Shown in pieces: positions 40,394-49,624 of a stretch of DNA of 64,000 nucleotides. The notes beneath the pieces were generated by a model. That model saw only the letters and a list, made by a program, of their open reading frames with translations, did not search any database and was not told where the DNA came from. The position numbers were made by a program, and so were the translations under genes. Positions within the stretch are counted from its first letter, which is position 1. The number at the start of each line of letters is the position of its first letter. Origin of the DNA: Pseudoalteromonas xiamenensis (lineage in GTDB: Bacteria; Pseudomonadota; Gammaproteobacteria; Enterobacterales; Alteromonadaceae); NCBI RefSeq assembly GCF_030994125.1, contig NZ_CP099917.1:3615589-3679588 (forward strand), written 5' to 3'.

Positions 40394-41200
40394 TTATCGA
40401 CTTGTTGCAGCTTTCATGTCACGGACGAATTGAGTCAACGTAGTGAGCATGTTCGGAAAATCACTTAGATTTTGCTCAATGATTTTGACGACGGCCGAAC
40501 CACTGATTGCACCTGCCGCGCCAGCATTTAACGCAGCCTTTACATGCTCCGGTGTGGAGATACCAAAACCAAGAAGCGCAGGAGCCGCTCGGTAGCTCAT
40601 TAATTTATCAACAATATCCCCTGCAGGCATTTCAGCAACGGTGTCTGTTCCTGTTACGCCAGCACGAGAAAGAAGGTAAGTATAACCTCTACCATAAGAA
40701 GCGCATTGGCGAAGAGTATCGTCGTCTGCGTTCGGTGTTGCGATAAAAATGGGGGCTATTTCATTTGCCATCGCCGCATGTCTAAAGCGTTTAGACTCAT
40801 GCAGAGGAACATCTGCAACAAGCACGGAATCGACGCCTGCAGCGCGAGCTTGTTCGTAAAATGAGTCGATGCCTTTGGCAAAAACCAAATTTGAATACAA
40901 CAGCAAGCCAATTGGAATGTTGGTGTTGTATTCTCGTATGGCTTTAATAATGTCAAAACTATCTTGAGTATTAATATTGGCCTCGAGAGCACGGATATTG
41001 GCGGACTGAATAACGGGACCATCTGCGATCGGGTCAGAAAATGGAATACCCAGTTCCAACGCGTCTGCACCCCCATCGATCAAGGCTTTGATAATTTCAA
41101 TACTCTGCTCTTTAGAAGGATCACCGAGTGTAACAAACGGAACAAATGCGCCTTCATTTTTCTGTTTTAACTGCTCGAACAGTTCGTCATAGCGTCTCAT
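40394..41200 (-). CDS. trpA: Tryptophan synthase alpha subunit
   Basis: A 268-residue TIM-barrel enzyme that cleaves indole-3-glycerol phosphate to indole and passes indole to Trp[29 protein letters not shown] with the catalytic Glu and Asp, [11 protein letters not shown] and LGFGIS(T)PEHV are present. Its ATG overlaps the trpB stop (ATGA). Length equals E. coli (268). Last gene of the trp operon. Confidence 0.97.
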
Positions 41201-42381
41201 AATGAACCTCTTTTCGCTAATACTTGGTGAACATGGGTTAGGTCTTTATCACCTCGGCCACTCAGATTCACAACGAGGATGGTATCTTCGGTCTGCGTTT
41301 CTGCGTACTTCAATGCGTAAGCAAGAGCGTGGCTTGACTCAAGTGCTGGAATGATCCCCTCATTTTTTGCTAAGGCTTGGAACGCATCCAACGCCTCATC
41401 ATCGGTGATGCCAACGTATTGCGCACGACCAGTTTCTGCCAAATAAGCGTGTTGAGGGCCGACAGCAGGATAATCTAAGCCCGCTGAAACAGAATACGAT
41501 TCTTCAATCTGGCCGTCTTGGTTTTGCATGATAAACGTGTAAGCACCGTGCAAAATACCCTTTGAACCTTTACAGATAGCAGCACCATGTTCATCAGTAT
41601 CTAAACCTTTTCCAGCAGGTTCAACGCCAATTAATTTTACACTTGATTCACCAATGAAATCGGCGAACATACCGATCGCATTTGAACCGCCGCCCACACA
41701 GGCAATGACAGCATCAGGTAAACGGCCTTCCGCATTCAGCACTTGCTCTTTTGCCTCTATCCCAATCATTTTTTGGAATTCACGGACTATCGTTGGGAAT
41801 GGGTGGGGACCTGCAGCCGTACCAAGTAAATAATGTGCTGTTTTATAGTTCGCGGACCAATCACGCAGCGCTTCATTTACCGCATCTTTCAGCGTTCCAG
41901 AACCCGCAGTAACAGGTATTACTTCAGCACCCATTAAACGCATACGGAATACGTTTGGTTGTTGGCGTTCGACGTCTTTTGCCCCCATATAAATTCGGCA
42001 TTTTAAGCCAAGGAGCGCGCATGCTAACGCTGTTGCTACGCCATGTTGACCTGCACCAGTTTCAGCAATGACTTCATTCTTGCCCATTCTTTTAGTCAAC
42101 AATGCTTGACCTAACACCTGATTGGTTTTGTGCGCGCCACCATGAAGTAAATCCTCACGTTTTAAATAGAGTTTTACTTTTGGATTTTTTACTAAATTGC
42201 GCGTTAGGGTGAGAGGTGTTGGTCTTCCTGCATATTCAGTAAGGAGTTGATTAAACTCCGTCAAAAACGCTGGATCGCTTTGCGCTTTTTCAAATTCAGC
42301 ATCTAGTTGTTTTAATGCTGGCACTAATAATTCTGGGACAAACATGCCACCAAAATCGCCAAAATAACCTTTGTTACTCAT
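41197..42381 (-). CDS. trpB: Tryptophan synthase beta subunit
   Basis: A 394-residue PLP enzyme joining indole and serine into tryptophan. The PLP lysine is Lys85 in [24 protein letters not shown] binds the phosphate, and the substrate loop [13 protein letters not shown] is intact. I start it at ATG 42381 ([12 protein letters not shown]), with GAGGTGG just before it; the frame is open further up to 42417 but that part lies in trpCF. It begins 7 bases after the trpCF stop. Confidence 0.97.
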
Positions 42382-42388
42382 GTCCACC

Positions 42389-43753
42389 TCAATAATTTCT
42401 AATTTGCGAAAAAGCATCGTTGATTTTATCTACACACTTTTTGCCTGGAGTAAGTTCCACTCCTGAATTTAAATCAAAACCGAGTGCACCGACTTTATGT
42501 GCGTCTGGAATATTTGCTGCACTTAGTCCGCCAGCTAAAATAAATGGGGTTTTAAGGTCTTTGATGAGTTCCCAGTTAAATTGCTTGCCGGTTCCACCTG
42601 ATTGCCCGTTCGCTTTGGTATCAAAAATATGTCTATCGACTAGCTCAAAGAGATCTGGCTGGGCATCCGAAACACCTAGTGCTTTCCAAATCTGACAATT
42701 TACAGGCAAGAGATTTCGAAGCAGCGAGATGTAATCTGCGTCTTCGTCGCCATGGAGTTGGACGGCCGCTAACTTTAATGTATTGGCGTACTCAGCTACT
42801 TCTTCTATCGATGAGTTGACGAATACACCTACATACTTAAGAGGTGCACTGTCGACCACTTCTCTTGCACAGTCTAAATCCACGTAGCGAGGTGATTTGC
42901 TATAGAAAATCAGTCCACCAAAAACAGCACCCGCATTATACGCGTTTAAAGCGTCCTGTGACCGTGTTAGTCCACAGACTTTGTTTTCACCTAAAATCAA
43001 TTGTCTACATGCACTGTCGAGACTTTGCTGTGCCATCAATGAACTGCCAACTAGAAAACCATCAACAATTGGCGATAGACGTTTTACATCTTGATGGGTG
43101 TAGATGCCGGATTCGGATATTACTACTGCGCCATTGGTAATAAGTGGGCGAAGTTGCTCCGTGGTCGCGAGATCGGTAGATAGATCACGTAGGTTGCGGT
43201 TGTTAATACCGATAAGAGTCGCACCAAGCGCTTGTGCCCGAGCCGTTTCCTCTTCATTACTCACTTCGGTCAAAATTGACATGTTCAGAGACTTCGCCAC
43301 ATTGGCAAGAGCCGAGTATTGCTCATCGTCAAGAACGGATAGCATTAACAATACGGCATCGCCACCGTAAAAACGAGCCAAATATATTTGGTACTCGTCA
43401 ATAAAGAAATCTTTACAGATAAGTGGTTGTGAGACCTTAGAGCGGACGTACTCAAGGTATTTATAACTACCTTGGAAATACTTTTCATCGGTAAGTACAC
43501 TAATGCAGGTCGCGTAGCGCGAATAGACTGACGTTATCTCATCTAAGTCGAAGTGAGCGCGAATAAGCCCTTTCGAAGGAGATGCTTTTTTACATTCAAG
43601 AATAAATTGTGTCCCTTGTTGAGCAAGTGCAGCGGTAAAATTGCGCTCAGTCGGTTGTACTTTGTCTTTAAACTCGCTGAGTGGGAACTCCATTTTGCGC
43701 TGTTCAAGCTCTAACTCTTTATCTGCGACAATGCGCTCGAGTACATTAGCCAT
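42389..43753 (-). CDS. trpCF: Bifunctional indole-3-glycerol phosphate synthase / PRA isomerase
   Basis: A 454-residue fusion like E. coli TrpC (452). Residues 1-255 are [36 protein letters not shown] and ISESGI. Residues 256-454 are PRA isomerase: [18 protein letters not shown] and GFDLNSGVE. It overlaps trpD by 8 bases. The fusion of C and F is typical of gammaproteobacteria. Confidence 0.96.
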
Positions 43754-44750
43754 GACTTACCTCTTTAATTAATTCTAATGTTTTTATCGCTTGACCACTT
43801 TCTAACGTTGAAAGAACAAAGTCACAGGCTACATTGAGCGAATCGAATCGACCTTGCATGTAGAGAAGGGCGGCTACATTAGCAGCAATAGCTGCATTGT
43901 GTGCAGGTAACCCTTGCCCAGAAAGAATGGCGACGCTGGCTTGAGCATTGTAGTCTGGCGTATCTCCGGCAATGGATTCAAGTGAATAGTTTGCAAGTCC
44001 AAAATCGTCTGGTGCAAGTTCATACTCACTAATTACGCCATTTTTTAATTCGGCAACAACAGTTTTACCATGCAGTGCGATTTCATCCGTCCCAGCACCA
44101 TGCACGACCATTGCACGTTTTGTTCCTAACTTTTGAAGGGTTTGAGCCATAGGTAAACATAACTTAGCGTCGTATACACCTAGGAGCTGTATGTCTGGCT
44201 GAGCAGGGTTAGCAAGTGGCCCTAAAATATTGAAAATCGTACGAGTTTTGAGTGCCGTTCTGACGGGCATTGCATGCTTTACACCTTGGTGATAGAGCGG
44301 AGCAAATAAAAACGTAAACCCGGTTTCTTGTAAGCATGTTTCTGCCTGAGATGGCGACATATCAATATTGATGCCCAACGATTTAAGCAGGTCTGCCGAC
44401 CCTGATTTACTGGACACGCTTCGGTTGCCATGTTTAACCATTGGAATACCACACGCGGCACCGACAATCGCGGCGGTAGTACTTACGTTTATGGTGTTTG
44501 AACCATCGCCGCCTGTGCCGCAACTATCTGCGGTTGCAAGCCCTTGTGCGTTAAAAGGAATGGCATGCTTACGCATTGATGCGGCAGCGCCTGCGATTTC
44601 ATCTACCGTTTCGCCTTTCAACTTAAGTGCAACAAGTGCCGCGGTAAGTTCAATGTCACTCACGGAGCCTTGCATGATCTGATCAAATAATGTTTGGCTT
44701 TGTTCAAAGTTCAAAGACTCGTTTTTCAATAGATTATTAAGTATGTCCAT
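43746..44750 (-). CDS. trpD: Anthranilate phosphoribosyltransferase
   Basis: A 334-residue enzyme transferring phosphoribose to anthranilate. The glycine-rich DSCGTGGDGSNTINVST, KHGNRSVSSKSGSADLLK with the KHG motif, and GPLANPAQ are present. It is separate from trpG, unlike the E. coli fusion. It starts directly after the trpG stop with no gap. Confidence 0.97.
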   Translation of the reverse strand: MDILNNLLKNESLNFEQSQTLFDQIMQGSVSDIELTAALVALKLKGETVDEIAGAAASMRKHAIPFNAQGLATADSCGTGGDGSNTINVSTTAAIVGAACGIPMVKHGNRSVSSKSGSADLLKSLGINIDMSPSQAETCLQETGFTFLFAPLYHQGVKHAMPVRTALKTRTIFNILGPLANPAQPDIQLLGVYDAKLCLPMAQTLQKLGTKRAMVVHGAGTDEIALHGKTVVAELKNGVISEYELAPDDFGLANYSLESIAGDTPDYNAQASVAILSGQGLPAHNAAIAANVAALLYMQGRFDSLNVACDFVLSTLESGQAIKTLELIKEVSHG

Positions 44751-45356
44751 TTAAGCCACTCCTTTTGCTAAAAAGTCTACGCTTTGCTTAAGTAATTGAG
44801 CTCCATTTGGCGTGAGTATTGATTCAGGATGAAACTGAAATCCAAGCGCGTTGTCCTTTTCATGGTAAATCGCCATCGGAATATCTTCGTATTTCGCAAT
44901 GATGCTTAGGCACTCAGGCACCGAGGTTGCCATTAACGAATGATAGCGAGCGACGGGCATGTTGCTGCCCATTCCTTCAAATACGGGGTGTGTGGCAATG
45001 TCGATAATCGATGACTTACCATGCACAGTTTGTCCGGCGTGCCCAACAGTGCCCCCATAACTTTGCGTCAGAGCTTGGTGCCCAAGACAAATTCCAAGCA
45101 TTGGGAAATGACCTCGACATTTTTCTATGAGTTCAAGTAGACACCCTGCGTCGGATGGCGCACCAGGGCCAGGTGAAAGAACGAGAATGACAGGGGCGGT
45201 TTCTTCTTTCATTTTATTAAACAAGTAGTCTGCATCGATGTTGTTACGATAAACCACAAGGTCATGGCCGAGTAATAGCAATTCGTCTACAAGGTTGTAG
45301 CTAAACGAATCAAAGTTATCTAAAAAGTAAATCTTACATGGAGTCGATGTGGTCAT
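44751..45356 (-). CDS. trpG: Anthranilate synthase glutaminase component
   Basis: A 201-residue class I glutamine amidotransferase. The triad is Cys90 in LGICLGHQAL and His-Glu in FQFHPESIL. The start has LDNFDSFSYNLVDEL. It supplies ammonia to TrpE. It overlaps trpE by four bases (ATGA). A related role in p-aminobenzoate synthesis (PabA) is possible for such proteins, but the operon position fixes it as TrpG. Confidence 0.95.
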   Translation of the reverse strand: MTTSTPCKIYFLDNFDSFSYNLVDELLLLGHDLVVYRNNIDADYLFNKMKEETAPVILVLSPGPGAPSDAGCLLELIEKCRGHFPMLGICLGHQALTQSYGGTVGHAGQTVHGKSSIIDIATHPVFEGMGSNMPVARYHSLMATSVPECLSIIAKYEDIPMAIYHEKDNALGFQFHPESILTPNGAQLLKQSVDFLAKGVA

Positions 45357-46933
45357 TTCGCATCCCCTTGATAGGTCGACTGAATTGCTCTTAACACGGC
45401 CTGAGCTTTAGCTCGAGTTTCATTGGCTTCAGATTGAGGATCAGAATCAAATACGACACCTGCACCGGCTTGCACATACGCAATATCGTCTTTCACGAAC
45501 GCAGATCGAATGACAATACACGTATCCATGTCACCAGAACCAGTCAGATAACCAACCGCACCGCCATAACTGCCACGACGAGTTTGTTCAACGTGACGAA
45601 TGAGTTCAGCGGCTTTCACTTTAGGTGCGCCGACCAATGTGCCCATATTCATGCAAGCTTGGTAAGCGTGCAGAGCATCTAAGTCACTTCTTAACTGGCC
45701 AACAACACGAGAAACCAAGTGCATTACTTGAGAATATCGGTCGACTTTCAGTAATTCTTTCGCATGACGAGTACCTGGGCTGCTTATTCGCGCAACATCA
45801 TTACGCGCTAGATCCACAAGCATTAAATGTTCAGCTCGTTCTTTTTGGTCATTGCGCAGTTCAAGCTCGATTCGGCTATCTAAATCCGGATTAATACGTC
45901 CATCGACAAATTTACCACGAGGGCGAGTGCCTGCAATGGGGTAGACCTCGACTTGATTCGACGTCGAACAGTACTTTAATGCAGATTCTGGCGAAGCACC
46001 AAATAACGTAAATGATTCATCCTGCATGTAGAACATATATGGACTAGGGTTCTGTAGCTTTAATTGTTGGTAAGCATACAGTGGATTTTTACACTCAATC
46101 GAGAAGGTACGTGAAGGGACGACTTGGAAAATGTCGCCATCGACAATGTGTTTCTTGAGTTGATTTACTTGTTCGCAGAACATTGCATCATCGATGCTCA
46201 CGTGTATGTTTGAATCGCCATTCAGTTTCTCCGCATTGAACATGCCAAGCGTATTACACTGGACATTCAATGCTTCAAGCTGCTTGCCGACTTCAAAACA
46301 ATTGGCATGTACTTCGGGACCATTGAATACATTACCAATGAGTTCGGTAGATTGAGCTTGGTGATCGATGACGATTAACGTTTCTGCTAAGTAAAATACA
46401 TAGTCAGGACACGTATTCAGCCCGTTAGGCACGTTAGGTAGTGTTTCGAAATTAGCGACCATGTCATACGCAAAGACTCCCCCTAAGAAAATACCGAAAG
46501 GCGTGTCACCATTGTTTTTAATGGAATTTAGTGTTGTGCGAAGGGCTGAAAAGGCATTGTTTGCTTTAAGCTTCTCATTTTCGTCAAACACCCCGACTGT
46601 TTGATGGTAATTAATCGTAAGTACATCGTCGCTCAGAGAGCTGTCGCAGCCTTCCAGTTGAGTTGCGAGAAAAGGTAAAACTTGTTTGCCGTTATTGGAC
46701 AAAGCTTTTGCATATACTGTGTGTCCCTGGCATTCAAAGCGAATGGCACTGTCGACTAATATTAAACTCTTAACACTGTCTTTCGAGTCTATCTCTGCCG
46801 ATTCCAATAACAATGAATTTGGTTTGTTGAGCGCAGCATACAGCGACAATGGACTGGCAATGTAGTCCCGTCGCTGTCGTATACTGGTCACTTCACCTGG
46901 CTGTGTTGTGATATGACTAAAAATCACCCTCAT
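45353..46933 (-). CDS. trpE: Anthranilate synthase component I
   Basis: A 526-residue chorismate-using enzyme, first step of tryptophan synthesis. The feedback-binding LLLES (41-45) and NPSPYMFYM are intact, so Trp inhibition is expected. Catalytic blocks include GDIFQVVPSR, PIAGTRPRG, ELRNDQKERAEHLMLVDLARND and SYGGAVGYL. The ATG at 46933 has AAAGGGGA almost touching it; a GTG at 46927 with GAGG upstream is an alternative start. The gene follows the second attenuator's T run. Confidence 0.96.
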   Translation of the reverse strand: MRVIFSHITTQPGEVTSIRQRRDYIASPLSLYAALNKPNSLLLESAEIDSKDSVKSLILVDSAIRFECQGHTVYAKALSNNGKQVLPFLATQLEGCDSSLSDDVLTINYHQTVGVFDENEKLKANNAFSALRTTLNSIKNNGDTPFGIFLGGVFAYDMVANFETLPNVPNGLNTCPDYVFYLAETLIVIDHQAQSTELIGNVFNGPEVHANCFEVGKQLEALNVQCNTLGMFNAEKLNGDSNIHVSIDDAMFCEQVNQLKKHIVDGDIFQVVPSRTFSIECKNPLYAYQQLKLQNPSPYMFYMQDESFTLFGASPESALKYCSTSNQVEVYPIAGTRPRGKFVDGRINPDLDSRIELELRNDQKERAEHLMLVDLARNDVARISSPGTRHAKELLKVDRYSQVMHLVSRVVGQLRSDLDALHAYQACMNMGTLVGAPKVKAAELIRHVEQTRRGSYGGAVGYLTGSGDMDTCIVIRSAFVKDDIAYVQAGAGVVFDSDPQSEANETRAKAQAVLRAIQSTYQGDAK

Positions 46934-46941
46934 TCCCCTTT

Positions 46942-46980
46942 AAAAAAAGCCCCCGCAAGCTGTGCTATGCGGGGGCTGTT
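46942..46980 (-). terminator. Second trp attenuator terminator (proximal to trpE)
   Basis: On the minus strand a 10-bp stem AGCCCCCGCA (46977-46968) / TGCGGGGGCT (46957-46948) with a 10-base loop is followed by seven T (46948-46942). Its 5' arm can instead pair with GCGGG (47006-47002), which lies just after the leader-2 stop codon. This is the classic terminator/antiterminator switch. Confidence 0.88.
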
Positions 46981-46987
46981 AAATACG

Positions 46988-47049
46988 TACAACAATGCCG
47001 TCCCGCGTTATGGGCACCACCACCATGAATGTGTAGTTGCATTGTTGTA
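46988..47049 (-). promoter_or_regulatory. Pairing arms 1 and 2 of the second attenuator
   Basis: TACAACAATGC (47049-47039, leader codons 3-6) is perfectly complementary over 11 bases to GCATTGTTGTA (46998-46988) after the leader stop. This stem would form when no ribosome covers the leader, as the 1:2 hairpin of attenuation. Confidence 0.7.
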
Positions 47050-47055
47050 AGCCAT
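47008..47055 (-). CDS. trpL: trp leader peptide 2
   Basis: A 15-residue leader peptide, MAYNNATTHSWWWCP, with three adjacent Trp codons (47025-47017). A strong Shine-Dalgarno GAGGTG (47065-47060) sits 4 bases before the ATG. It is followed by pairing arms and the terminator at 46942-46980. Ribosome stalling at Trp codons under Trp shortage would favour the antiterminator. Confidence 0.85.
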   Translation of the reverse strand: MAYNNATTHSWWWCP

Positions 47056-47072
47056 TTTTCACCTCAAAATCT

Positions 47073-47101
47073 AAAAAAAACCCGCATCATGTGCGGGTTT
47101 A
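47073..47101 (-). terminator. First trp attenuator terminator (promoter-proximal)
   Basis: On the minus strand AAACCCGCA (47100-47092), 5-base loop, TGCGGGTTT (47086-47078), then T to 47073. The 5' arm can pair alternatively with TGCGGGT (47137-47131), right after the leader-1 stop, over seven bases. Confidence 0.88.
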
Positions 47102-47139
47102 TTAAAAATCGTTAGACACGACCTATCGTCACCCGCAAT

Positions 47140-47190
47140 TTACGAGTACCACCACCAACCTTTGTTGTTTATTTTTGTCGTCATAGTCAT
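47140..47190 (-). CDS. trpL: trp leader peptide 1
   Basis: A 16-residue leader peptide, MTMTTKINNKGWWWYS, with three adjacent Trp codons (47157-47149). Starts at ATG 47190 or the second ATG at 47184. No clear Shine-Dalgarno is visible, unlike leader 2. The pattern TGG-TGG-TGG, T, two variable codons, TAA, then GCGGG is shared with leader 2, so one leader probably arose by duplication of the other. Confidence 0.82.
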   Translation of the reverse strand: MTMTTKINNKGWWWYS

Positions 47191-47204
47191 GATGTTAATA
47201 GTAC
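47185..47204. promoter_or_regulatory. Possible TrpR operator-like site
   Basis: The minus strand reads CGTACTATTAACATCATG, which shares GTACTA and TTAAC with the E. coli TrpR operator core (ACTAGTTAACTAGT) but lacks one base and is imperfect on the other side. It overlaps the start of leader 1. Confidence 0.25.
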
Positions 47205-47225
47205 GTTGTGTCTTTTGTTGGGTAC

Positions 47226-47254
47226 AGTAAATAGTATGGTGTAATGAATGTCAA
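47226..47254 (-). promoter_or_regulatory. Putative trp operon promoter
   Basis: On the minus strand TTGACA (47254-47249), 17-base spacer, TTTACT (47231-47226). An overlapping alternative is TTGACC-N18-TACTAT. The start would be near 47219, about 29 bases before leader 1. Confidence 0.6.
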
Positions 47255-47307
47255 GGTCAAATTGGACGTTCAGATGGAAATTTGGCGAGGTAGGAGCAGT
47301 AAAAGAC

Positions 47308-47316
47308 TGTTATACT
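47308..47316 (+). promoter_or_regulatory. Extended -10 promoter of rnm operon
   Basis: TGTTATACT: an extended -10 (TGnTATACT) about 30 bases before the rnm start. No good -35 is seen at standard spacing. It is divergent from the trp promoter. Confidence 0.45.
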
Positions 47317-47347
47317 CGGTTTAAATCAATTAAGTAGTAGACTATTC

Positions 47348-48196
47348 GTGATCACAAAATACGATTTGCACAGCCACACCCATTATTCGGATGGACGATT
47401 AACCGTTTCTGAACTGCTTGACAGGGCTGTAGAAAGAAACGTTGATGTGTTGGCGATAACAGATCACGATTCAGTGCAGGCTATCTCAGAAGCGAACCGT
47501 TTAATTGATGAGAAAAAGTTACCGCTTTCCTTAATAAGTGGTGTCGAAATCTCGACCAAATGGCACAGTTTTGAAATACATGTCGTTGGCTTAAACATTA
47601 ATATCGCGTCGACATCATTAGTTGATTTACTTGATTCGCAAACTCAAAAAAGAGAGGCTCGCGCTATTGAAATTGGCAACCGACTGGCCAAAGCGGGCTA
47701 CCTCGATGTTTATTCTGATGCCAAGGCGCTAGCCGAGCAGGGCCAAATCACGCGTGCTCATTTCGCACAAGTGTTAGTTAATCGTGGTGTTGCAAAGAAT
47801 TTACAAGGTGTGTTTAACAAATTTCTCACTCGAGGCAACACTGGGTATGTGCCATCCGAATGGTGCACGATTGCTGACGCGGTGAGTGCTATCACGTCCT
47901 CAGGTGGTATCGCTGTATTGGCCCACCCAGGGCGCTACAAAATGTCAAACAAGTGGTTACGAAAGTTGTTAGACGAGTTTTCCTATACGGGAGGTAAGGC
48001 AATTGAAGTTGCGTTGCCACAACAAGCGCCTTGTGAAAGACAATTTTTGGGTCAGCTTTGTCAAGAATATGGTCTACTGGGAAGCCAAGGCTCCGATTTC
48101 CATTATCCGACGCCTTGGTCAGACTTAGGAAAAAATTTATATTTGCCCAAAGATTGTCAGGGCGTTTGGCAATTTTGGGAAGAAAAAGGAGCGTAA
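47348..48196 (+). CDS. rnm: RNase AM, PHP-domain 5'-3' exoribonuclease
   Basis: A 282-residue PHP phosphoesterase (formerly YciV/TrpH; E. coli 293). Metal-binding HSHTHYSDGRLT and ITDHDSV are at the N-terminus, GVEIST and AHPGRY follow, and GSDFHYP near the end. In E. coli it trims 5' ends of rRNAs and degrades small RNA fragments. The start is GTG at 47348. It heads an operon with yciO (1-base gap), scpA, scpB and rluB, and is divergent from trp as in many gammaproteobacteria. Confidence 0.93.
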   Translation: MITKYDLHSHTHYSDGRLTVSELLDRAVERNVDVLAITDHDSVQAISEANRLIDEKKLPLSLISGVEISTKWHSFEIHVVGLNINIASTSLVDLLDSQTQKREARAIEIGNRLAKAGYLDVYSDAKALAEQGQITRAHFAQVLVNRGVAKNLQGVFNKFLTRGNTGYVPSEWCTIADAVSAITSSGGIAVLAHPGRYKMSNKWLRKLLDEFSYTGGKAIEVALPQQAPCERQFLGQLCQEYGLLGSQGSDFHYPTPWSDLGKNLYLPKDCQGVWQFWEEKGA

Positions 48197-48197
48197 A

Positions 48198-48818
48198 ATG
48201 AGCCAGTTTTTTCATGTTCATCCTGAAAATCCACAAACGAGACTTATTCGTCAAGCAGCTGACATCATCAAAAACGGGGGGGTTGTGGTTTACCCAACGG
48301 ATTCGGGTTATGCAATTGGATGTAATCTTGGCAACAAGCAAGCTAAAGAACGTATCGAACGAATTCGAGGCATTGAACAGCACCACAACTTTACGTTAGT
48401 GTGCCGTGATTTGAGCGAACTATCAACGTATGCCCGTGTCGACAACCAGATGTTTCGGTTAATTAAAAATAATACGCCGGGGCCATATACATTTATTTTC
48501 AAAGGAACCAAAGAGGTTCCTCGTCGTTTATTAAACGAAAAGAAAAAGACGATAGGGATCCGCGTTACAGATAACCCCATTACGGTGGCATTACTCGAAG
48601 AGTTGGGTGAGCCTATGATGTCGTGTTCGCTTATTTTGCCTGGCGAAAGTTTTACCGAGTCTGACCCTGAAGAAATCAGAGATAGACTCGAAAAAGTAGT
48701 CGACTTAATTATCCACGGCGGATACTTGGCGGAGCAAGCAACAACGGTAGTGGACTTATCGGAAGATGAGCCGCAAATACTGCGTGTTGGCTGCGGTGAT
48801 CCAACACCGTTTCAATAG
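48198..48818 (+). CDS. yciO: YciO, Sua5/YrdC-family protein
   Basis: A 206-residue YrdC-fold protein: NGGVVVYPTDSGYAIGC, then RIRGIEQHHNFTLVCRDL and the ATP/threonyl site TIGIRVTDNPI, ending with TVVDLSEDEPQILRVG. The relative TsaC makes threonylcarbamoyl-AMP; YciO does so only weakly and its role is not settled. It contains a G7 run at about 48277 that is in frame. It starts one base after the rnm stop and ends two bases before scpA. Confidence 0.92.
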   Translation: MSQFFHVHPENPQTRLIRQAADIIKNGGVVVYPTDSGYAIGCNLGNKQAKERIERIRGIEQHHNFTLVCRDLSELSTYARVDNQMFRLIKNNTPGPYTFIFKGTKEVPRRLLNEKKKTIGIRVTDNPITVALLEELGEPMMSCSLILPGESFTESDPEEIRDRLEKVVDLIIHGGYLAEQATTVVDLSEDEPQILRVGCGDPTPFQ

Positions 48819-48820
48819 CC

Positions 48821-49624
48821 ATGGCAGAAGTCATCCAACAAAAGCTGCCTTTAGCTTTTCTGAATGGCGAAGCCGTTGTAGAAAAGCCTGAAGACCTTTA
48901 CATTCCGCCCGATGCGCTGGAGGTGATCCTAGACACTTTTGAAGGGCCTTTAGATCTTCTGCTTTACCTTATTAAACGACATAAGTTAGATATTGTTGAG
49001 TTGCCGATTTTAAAAATAACGGAGCAGTACGTCACTTACGTTGACATGATGAAGGAACTCAAGCTTGAATTGGCAGCGGAATATCTGGTTATGGCTGCGT
49101 TACTGGCGCAAATTAAATCTCGAATGTTGTTACCGGTGCATGAAGAGCTTCAAGAAGAAGAAGACCCCAGAGCAGAATTGGTCAGACGATTACAGGAATA
49201 CGAACTGTTTAAATCGGCCGCGGAAAAACTAGATGAAATCCCACGCTTGGAACGAGATATTTTCGTCGCGACTGCCAAAATGGATGCATCGTTTGAGCAA
49301 GATATTTTGCTTCCCGACGCGTCATTGAAAGAGCTTCTCGTTGCGCTCAGTGATGTCATGTCTCGAGCTAAAGTGTTTGAACATCACCATATTTCAAAAG
49401 AAGTATTGTCAACACGAGAGAGAATGAGCCACATATTAGCTTTGCTGTCAGAGACCGACACCTCACTCGCGTTTAGCCATTTTTTCGATGTAGACGAAGG
49501 ACGAAGTGGGGTCGTTGTTACTTTTATTGCCATGCTTGAACTCGTCAAAGAATCGCTAATATCGATTGTTCAGGCAAATGTTGGCGGACAGGTTTATTTA
49601 TCTCTTTATCAAGATTCGCAATAA
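48821..49624 (+). CDS. scpA: Segregation and condensation protein A
   Basis: A 267-residue kleisin: LDTFEGPLDLLLYLIKRHKLDIVELPILKITEQY split over the start, then AAEYLVMAALLAQIKSRMLLP, the typical ScpA N-terminal. The C-terminal winged-helix part is also seen. It bridges SMC heads with ScpB in chromosome organisation. No smc gene is in the window. It is linked to scpB, 58 bases downstream. Confidence 0.94.
   Translation: MAEVIQQKLPLAFLNGEAVVEKPEDLYIPPDALEVILDTFEGPLDLLLYLIKRHKLDIVELPILKITEQYVTYVDMMKELKLELAAEYLVMAALLAQIKSRMLLPVHEELQEEEDPRAELVRRLQEYELFKSAAEKLDEIPRLERDIFVATAKMDASFEQDILLPDASLKELLVALSDVMSRAKVFEHHHISKEVLSTRERMSHILALLSETDTSLAFSHFFDVDEGRSGVVVTFIAMLELVKESLISIVQANVGGQVYLSLYQDSQ

Follow-up and report, generated by a model that had tools for sequence, protein, structure and literature searches.

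In the textbook account of the Escherichia coli trp operon, transcription is controlled by a single attenuator together with a repressor protein. The modelling study PMC1183508, in the part of the paper available, likewise describes one attenuator unit plus TrpR, and gives the attenuator a leak of 10-15% and the repressor a range of about 70-fold. In that account so leaky an attenuator is tolerated because TrpR performs most of the repression, while the his operon, which is controlled by attenuation only, requires a lower leak than that of E. coli trp. A survey of Shewanella (PMC2659441) places trpE under the Rfam Trp_leader, and the word tandem is absent from the accessible part of its text.

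Analysis of the window (i.e. the whole 64,000 nt stretch of Pseudoalteromonas xiamenensis DNA under study) confirms at the level of sequence that two complete attenuator units lie in series upstream of trpE, each comprising a leader peptide with three successive tryptophan codons (WWW), a GCGGG segment and an intrinsic terminator. The order on the minus strand is promoter, leader peptide 1 (LP1), terminator T1, leader peptide 2 (LP2), terminator T2 and trpE; the ORFs after trpE (41197-45356) look by eye, from their translations, like trpG, trpD, trpCF and trpB. TrpE, the first gene of the regulated operon, is encoded at 45353-46933 with its ATG at 46933, and was named by eye and from the matches of its relatives. 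The promoter (47226-47254) is predicted from its match to the consensus and its conservation in the genus, with a -35 element TTGACA at 47254-47249, a 17 nt spacer and a -10 element TTTACT at 47231-47226.

LP1 (MTMTTKINNKGWWWYS) occupies 47140-47190, with its WWW codons at 47157-47149 and another possible start at 47184. Sequence and folding identify GCGGGT at 47131-47136 as segment 2 of unit 1, i.e. the putative 5' strand of an antiterminator. T1 (47073-47100) consists of a hairpin at 47100-47078 (-12.4 kcal/mol) and a U-tract ending at 47073. The second unit begins with a Shine-Dalgarno sequence GAGGTG at 47060-47065, followed by LP2 (MAYNNATTHSWWWCP) at 47008-47055 with WWW codons at 47025-47017. 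Its segment 2, GCGGG at 47002-47006, was assigned in the same way, and T2 (46942-46977) has a hairpin at 46977-46948 (-23.3 kcal/mol) and a U-tract ending at 46942. Compensatory changes support both terminators. Both leader stop codons are thus followed by GCGGG, at 47136-47132 in unit 1 and at 47006-47002 in unit 2, for which CCCGC in the 5' arm of the terminator is a potential partner. The sequence-only reading from which we began had proposed this order and this pairing; its coordinates were right to within about 3 nt, and the CCCGC partner is present in both units.

Besides LP1 and LP2, neither strand of the 64 kb window has an ATG-started mini-ORF of 45 or fewer amino acids with WWW. When the 300 nt leader was shuffled with preservation of dinucleotides (n = 20,000) at least one WWW mini-ORF appeared in 15 sequences and two appeared in none. 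Folding indicates that the 286 nt leader RNA is more stable than its shuffles (z = -4.15). A simple terminator scan reported T1 alone, T2 being missed because its loop has 10 nt where the scan is limited to 8; the count it returned was not above that of shuffles (1 found, against a mean of 0.9). In Rfam, unit 1 matches Trp_leader (RF00513) with 34.6 bits, below the gathering score of 41, and no match to this family was found for unit 2 on the coding strand. The T-box riboswitch is absent from the 14 Rfam matches obtained with E up to 5 for positions 45000-49000.

Both units are most likely carried on one transcript. In an alignment of 56 distinct sequences from the genus the conserved block upstream of LP1 is TTGACA-N17/18-TTTACTGT. 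The -35 element is TTGACT in three genomes (L004, L057, L058) and a fourth (L059) has a different -10. The best promoter scores between the units are 6.7-8.2 in 14 of 15 representatives, and those upstream of LP1 are 8.7-10; in the remaining representative (L039) the values are 9.5 between the units and 9.7 upstream of LP1. It is from the conserved promoter and the weak scores between the units that we deduce a single transcript starting upstream of LP1. A start between the units, which the sequence-only reading had named as a finding that would undo its proposal, receives little support from this scoring.

The tandem arrangement is kept across Pseudoalteromonas. In a sample of 60 genomes, including that of the window, all 60 have a leader 1 with WWW and 57 have a leader 2. 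The latter carries WWW in 54 genomes, and in the other three WGW (L030) or WW (L051 and L053). Leader 2 begins with GTG in L021, L025 and L026, and is absent from L055, L056 and L060. The comparison of trpE leaders among relatives that had been suggested at the outset came out, within the genus, in favour of the tandem. Our two-unit finder does not recognise the two WW leaders and so accepts 55 genomes rather than 57; all counts out of 55 refer to the accepted set. All 115 units handled by the finder (55 genomes with two units and five with one) have a hairpin with a U-rich stretch after it, the U-tract of T2 being interrupted in some species. The intrinsic terminator of unit 2 lies 27-45 nt past the LP2 stop codon in the 55 genomes, and the end of LP2 is at least 69 nt from trpE (54 genomes). 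The terminator stems of both units contain compensatory changes, which in T1 affect the pair just inside CCCGC/GCGGG. The five core pairs of T1 are invariant in all 43 distinct sequences. Three of the five core pairs of T2 are invariant in 43 of 43, while in some sequences the outer two differ or do not pair. We note that in L006 the distance between leader 2 and trpE is 265 nt longer than in L008, in the stretch between T2 and trpE.

The expected switching of each unit was examined by folding with part of the RNA masked by a ribosome, whose A site held either a Trp codon or the stop codon and whose edge was fixed 12 nt from the A-site codon. The calculation is an equilibrium one, and the readout is how often the GC portion of the 5' arm of the terminator pairs upstream before the 3' arm has been made. 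The antiterminator probability in unit 1 is 0.86 with the ribosome stalled at Trp and 0.06 with it at the stop codon; the corresponding values in unit 2 are 0.78 and 0.12. The difference between stalled and stop states exceeds 0.3 in 54 of the 55 genomes, for each unit. Taken by itself, the stalled value is little higher for real spacers than for shuffled ones (0.85 against 0.61 in unit 1 and 0.80 against 0.70 in unit 2) and was dropped as a test; the stalled-minus-stop difference was adopted after this weak result. For unit 1 this is 0.78, compared with 0.035 for shuffled spacers, with 38 of 43 distinct sequences at or below the 5% level. For unit 2 it is 0.67 compared with 0.22, and 31 of 45 distinct sequences reach that level. 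In the window the differences are 0.91 (unit 1) and 0.48 (unit 2), and none of 60 shuffles was as high for either unit. An antiterminator is part of the predicted structure of unit 2 in 43 of 43 distinct sequences. The model therefore predicts for both units a mutually exclusive antiterminator, available while the ribosome is stalled on the Trp codons and masked once the stop codon has been reached. Folding for alternative structures had been proposed as a check on the original reading, and it bears that reading out beyond what shuffled spacers give.

In these calculations the antiterminator is still predicted on average when the ribosome is removed (0.75 in unit 1 and 0.65 in unit 2), so that termination in Trp excess should depend upon a ribosome at the stop codon. 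An antiterminator that prevails in ribosome-free RNA would be unlike the textbook picture. The spacing of the elements is similar in the two units. Located by motif, and counted from the first base of the final Trp codon, segment 2 starts at 14-17 nt in 50 of 55 unit 1 sequences, the motif being absent from the other five, and at 12-17 nt in all 55 unit 2 sequences (15 nt in 48). Located by predicted pairing, the distances are 13-18 nt (unit 1) and 8-17 nt (unit 2). The number of codons from Trp to the stop differs, being two in 49 of 55 LP1 and three in 48 of 55 LP2 sequences.

The units differ in other respects. The median hairpin energy over the 55 genomes is -19.4 kcal/mol for T2 compared with -13.0 kcal/mol for T1. 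A Shine-Dalgarno sequence containing GG precedes LP1 in 5 of 60 genomes and LP2 in 46 of 54, taking the nearest ATG as the start, and translation of LP1 is less certain because its Shine-Dalgarno sequence is mostly missing. Three Trp codons are present in both leaders in most genomes. Unit 2 of the window contains a pause-like (1:2) stem (46988-47049), in which 47049-47039 pairs with 46998-46988 in 11 consecutive pairs (duplex energy -17.5 kcal/mol). This stem, joining the start of LP2 to the stretch after its stop codon, is a candidate pause hairpin; it is stronger than in all 100 shuffles, and 14 of 31 distinct genus sequences give p<=0.05. The equivalent stem of unit 1 passes in 6 of 38 distinct sequences, with p = 0.29 in the window.

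We conclude, with a probability of roughly 0.8, that the trpE leader contains two ribosome-mediated attenuators in series that each respond to charged tRNA-Trp, that the pair arose by duplication, and that the second unit supplies the low basal expression for which E. coli has TrpR. One promoter upstream of LP1 would generate one transcript carrying both units. A ribosome stalled at WWW would leave the GCGGG beyond the stop codon free to pair with CCCGC in the terminator 5' arm, so that the terminator could not form and RNA polymerase would continue; a ribosome at the stop codon would cover GCGGG and the terminator would form. The polymerase would have to pass both gates before reaching trpE. 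Because there are two terminators in series, the anatomy implies that termination probabilities are multiplied: in Trp excess the overall leak should be the product of the leaks of gates one and two, while in Trp starvation both gates should open.

The locus can be read in other ways. Leaders rich in A and T often hold mini-ORFs, and the simple terminator scan did no better on the real leader than on shuffles, so one might suppose that these are chance mini-ORFs next to ordinary terminators; against this, two WWW mini-ORFs occurred in 0 of 20,000 shuffles and both leaders are kept in 57 of 60 genomes. We consider this barely credible, and conservation of the leaders rules it out. Alternatively unit 1 alone might regulate, unit 2 being a copy in decay or in reserve, with a leader of little effect. 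The variant forms of leader 2 (WW in two genomes, WGW in one, GTG starts in three) and its loss from three others are as might be expected of such a copy. They have to be set against the fact that 57 of 60 genomes retain leader 2, the antiterminator predicted in every distinct unit 2 sequence, the generally better Shine-Dalgarno sequence of LP2 and the stronger hairpin of T2, and we regard sole regulation by unit 1 as improbable. Slightly less probable still is control by unit 2 of trpE translation or mRNA stability instead of transcription, for instance through ribosomes that reinitiate. Such reinitiation downstream of leader genes is a published proposal (PMC4833913, in the part of the paper available), and other genomes lacking TrpR have a second W-containing mini-ORF near trpE with no clear second terminator. 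In Pseudoalteromonas, however, an intrinsic terminator follows 27-45 nt past the LP2 stop codon, and LP2 ends at least 69 nt from trpE.

A further possibility is that the two units provide two thresholds or time scales, i.e. a graded response, rather than deeper repression. Unit 1 would then be weakly translated and terminating and unit 2 strongly translated and terminating. The difference in Shine-Dalgarno sequence between LP1 and LP2, the unequal stability of T1 and T2, and the strong 1:2 stem that the window has in unit 2 only are all in keeping with such a scheme. Yet both leaders have three Trp codons in most genomes and segment 2 lies at a similar distance in each, so that equal sensitivity is the simplest expectation. 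This scheme is compatible with multiplication of leaks in series, and we think it rather unlikely, if clearly less so than the other alternatives.

Under the preferred reading of two attenuators in series, a tandem duplication in the last common ancestor of Pseudoalteromonas, or earlier, is the simplest account of their origin and most likely the correct one. The similarity scores of unit 1 with unit 2 are 65, 41 and 60 in L058, L059 and L061, where the null maxima are 23, 24 and 22 respectively. The null maximum is exceeded in 8 of 14 genomes tested and not in the other six. The two units of the window resemble each other no more than shuffles do (21, with a null maximum of 25), and the common WWW codons alone contribute 18 points to a score. 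In a tree of TrpE, L058, L059 and L061 branch off first within the genus, with support of 90/97 for the remaining genus; this is below the starred level, and the outgroup branches are long. Gene conversion within the L058/L059/L061 clade is an alternative explanation for the likeness of their units.

The duplication would have supplied, through the second attenuator, the low basal expression for which E. coli uses TrpR. With the Pfam model Trp_repressor, TrpR was found above the cut-off in none of 40 genomes of the genus. Partial matches below the cut-off occur in four of the 40, the best with 24.8 bits, and the genome of the window has none. The control search was positive in E. coli and, by this model, in B. 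subtilis. In a sample of the order 56 of 158 genomes have TrpR above the cut-off. The region upstream of trpE was read in 79 genomes of the order, out of 127 with a TrpE match (that of the window included). A second Trp-rich mini-ORF follows the first in 11 of 48 genomes lacking TrpR, compared with 0 of 31 that have it. Counted by family these become 4 of 13 and 0 of 9, which is not significant (p = 0.115). One of the four families (f11) includes a genome with TrpR (G095), which is outside the 79. These sequence comparisons are suggestive of a link across the order between loss of TrpR and a second Trp leader, and we suggest that in Pseudoalteromonas a doubled RNA switch does the job of the repressor.

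Several genomes lacking TrpR have a second mini-ORF with WRW between the attenuator and trpE, and no clear second terminator (loci of this type are L190, L218, L219, L220, L221, L222, L245, L246, L252 and L255). As plain second attenuators, the WRW mini-ORFs of these other families are rejected for now for want of a clear second terminator. Mini-ORFs ending KVKSWFIWWLQPLYAG are nearly identical in two genera (L188 and L191), and such conservation of the peptide would fit an arrest peptide better than a plain counter of codons. In L195, L196 and L253 there is no Trp leader, and trpE comes directly after another reading frame that by eye is like DAHP synthase.

The tandem plan was also sought outside the genus. 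A pattern scan of named genomes gave at least 116 loci, and a class-wide scan of 369 genomes gave matches in six, i.e. that of the window and five others. Of 124 pattern loci examined (the at least 116 from named genomes plus 8 from the class-wide scan) 18 precede a TrpE-like gene; among the matches listed, 12 of these are titled Pseudoalteromonas and six are from Bacteroidota. None of the 8 loci from the five other class-wide genomes had a TrpE-like match. The six Bacteroidota loci come from three Marivirga records, Fulvivirga marina, an Ichthyobacteriaceae MAG and a Prolixibacteraceae MAG, and in each of them the TrpE-like gene is preceded by two WWW leaders together with a pair of terminator-like hairpins. 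When averaged over the Trp codons, and calculated for the real sequences only, the stalled-minus-stop difference is above 0.3 in both units in five (L107, L110, L113, L155 and L162); on folding it is absent from both units of the sixth, L104. A scan of 295 Bacteroidia genomes centred on that of Fulvivirga matched this genome and five others, and Fulvivirga alone has the match before a TrpE-like gene. The lack of a true case among the 294 others indicates that the tandem form is rare at the stringency of the pattern.

In two records of Bacteroidales/Rikenella (L088 and L131) a gene that by eye resembles trpB is preceded by two W-rich leaders. In both, the first unit has a terminator and a weak stalled-minus-stop difference, and no terminator was found in the second. 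TrpR above the cut-off was found in none of the eight genomes of these two records and the six Bacteroidota loci. The phyla are distant, and because of this it is likely that the tandem plan arose independently in Pseudoalteromonas and in Bacteroidota.

The three Pseudoalteromonas genomes lacking leader 2 (L055, L056 and L060) form a single clade in the TrpE tree, and in each of them a single WWW leader precedes two terminators separated by 9 nt. Folding of the real sequences only, with the ribosome stalled, pairs the T2 5' arm upstream with probabilities of 0.97, 0.96 and 0.95 respectively. The partner is mostly the freed T1 3' arm (0.83, 0.82 and 0.78). The T1 5' arm is taken by segment 2 with a probability of 0.66 in each stalled RNA, and of 0.14, 0.00 and 0.56 with the ribosome at the stop codon; the relay is less clean in L060 because the first step is still at 0.56 in that state. 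These leaders are candidates for a relay attenuator, in which the terminators are linked by a hand-over between hairpins. A stalled ribosome would free segment 2 to pair with the T1 5' arm, and the T1 3' arm so released would pair with the T2 5' arm, both terminators being lost like dominoes. If this is true, a single sensor would command both terminators, and the relay would amount to an RNA logic element. Taken more broadly, attenuators in series for the same signal could be a recurrent form of repressor-free control of amino acid operons, reached independently in Pseudoalteromonas and Bacteroidota and converted to a relay in one clade; we offer this tentatively, at a little short of even odds.

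If each gate had the 10-15% leak of the E. coli attenuator, two in series would by arithmetic leak about 1-2%, with full induction kept. A genus in which TrpR is undetected and two attenuators lie in series thus provides a natural test of the leak theory set out in the available part of PMC1183508, and deletion of single units would test directly whether basal leak or sensitivity was selected.

In the open literature, for which the best matches were listed, we found no pair of attenuators responding to the same signal with two intrinsic terminators before trpE; earlier mention in subscription papers on comparative attenuation is possible. The caution of the sequence-only reading about the novelty of this form was fair: tandem attenuators as such are known from mgtCBR of Salmonella, where two different signals are read (PMC3641672, in the part available).

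Among the closest known systems is the E. coli trp attenuator itself, with which each unit shares a leader with Trp codons, a segment beyond the stop codon and a switch between antiterminator and terminator ahead of trpE. The difference is that E. coli has one unit plus TrpR, whereas here there are two units, and TrpR is above the Pfam cut-off in 0 of 40 genomes of the genus. The mgtCBR leader also has two short ORFs (mgtM and mgtP), each gating elongation, but as described in the available part of PMC3641672 their signals are ATP and proline and their hairpins are unlike intrinsic terminators; the leader studied here has intrinsic terminators in both units, and Trp codons in both from which the signal is deduced. 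The metE leader of Bacillus clausii, according to the same portion of that paper, resembles it in having two sensors and two expected intrinsic terminators in one leader, and differs in that the sensors are metabolite-binding RNAs for two different signals. The Salmonella his attenuator, from what is given in the accessible part of PMC1183508, answers the same need for a low basal leak with no repressor. It does so with more regulatory codons and an extra hairpin inside one unit, in contrast to the second unit of Pseudoalteromonas.
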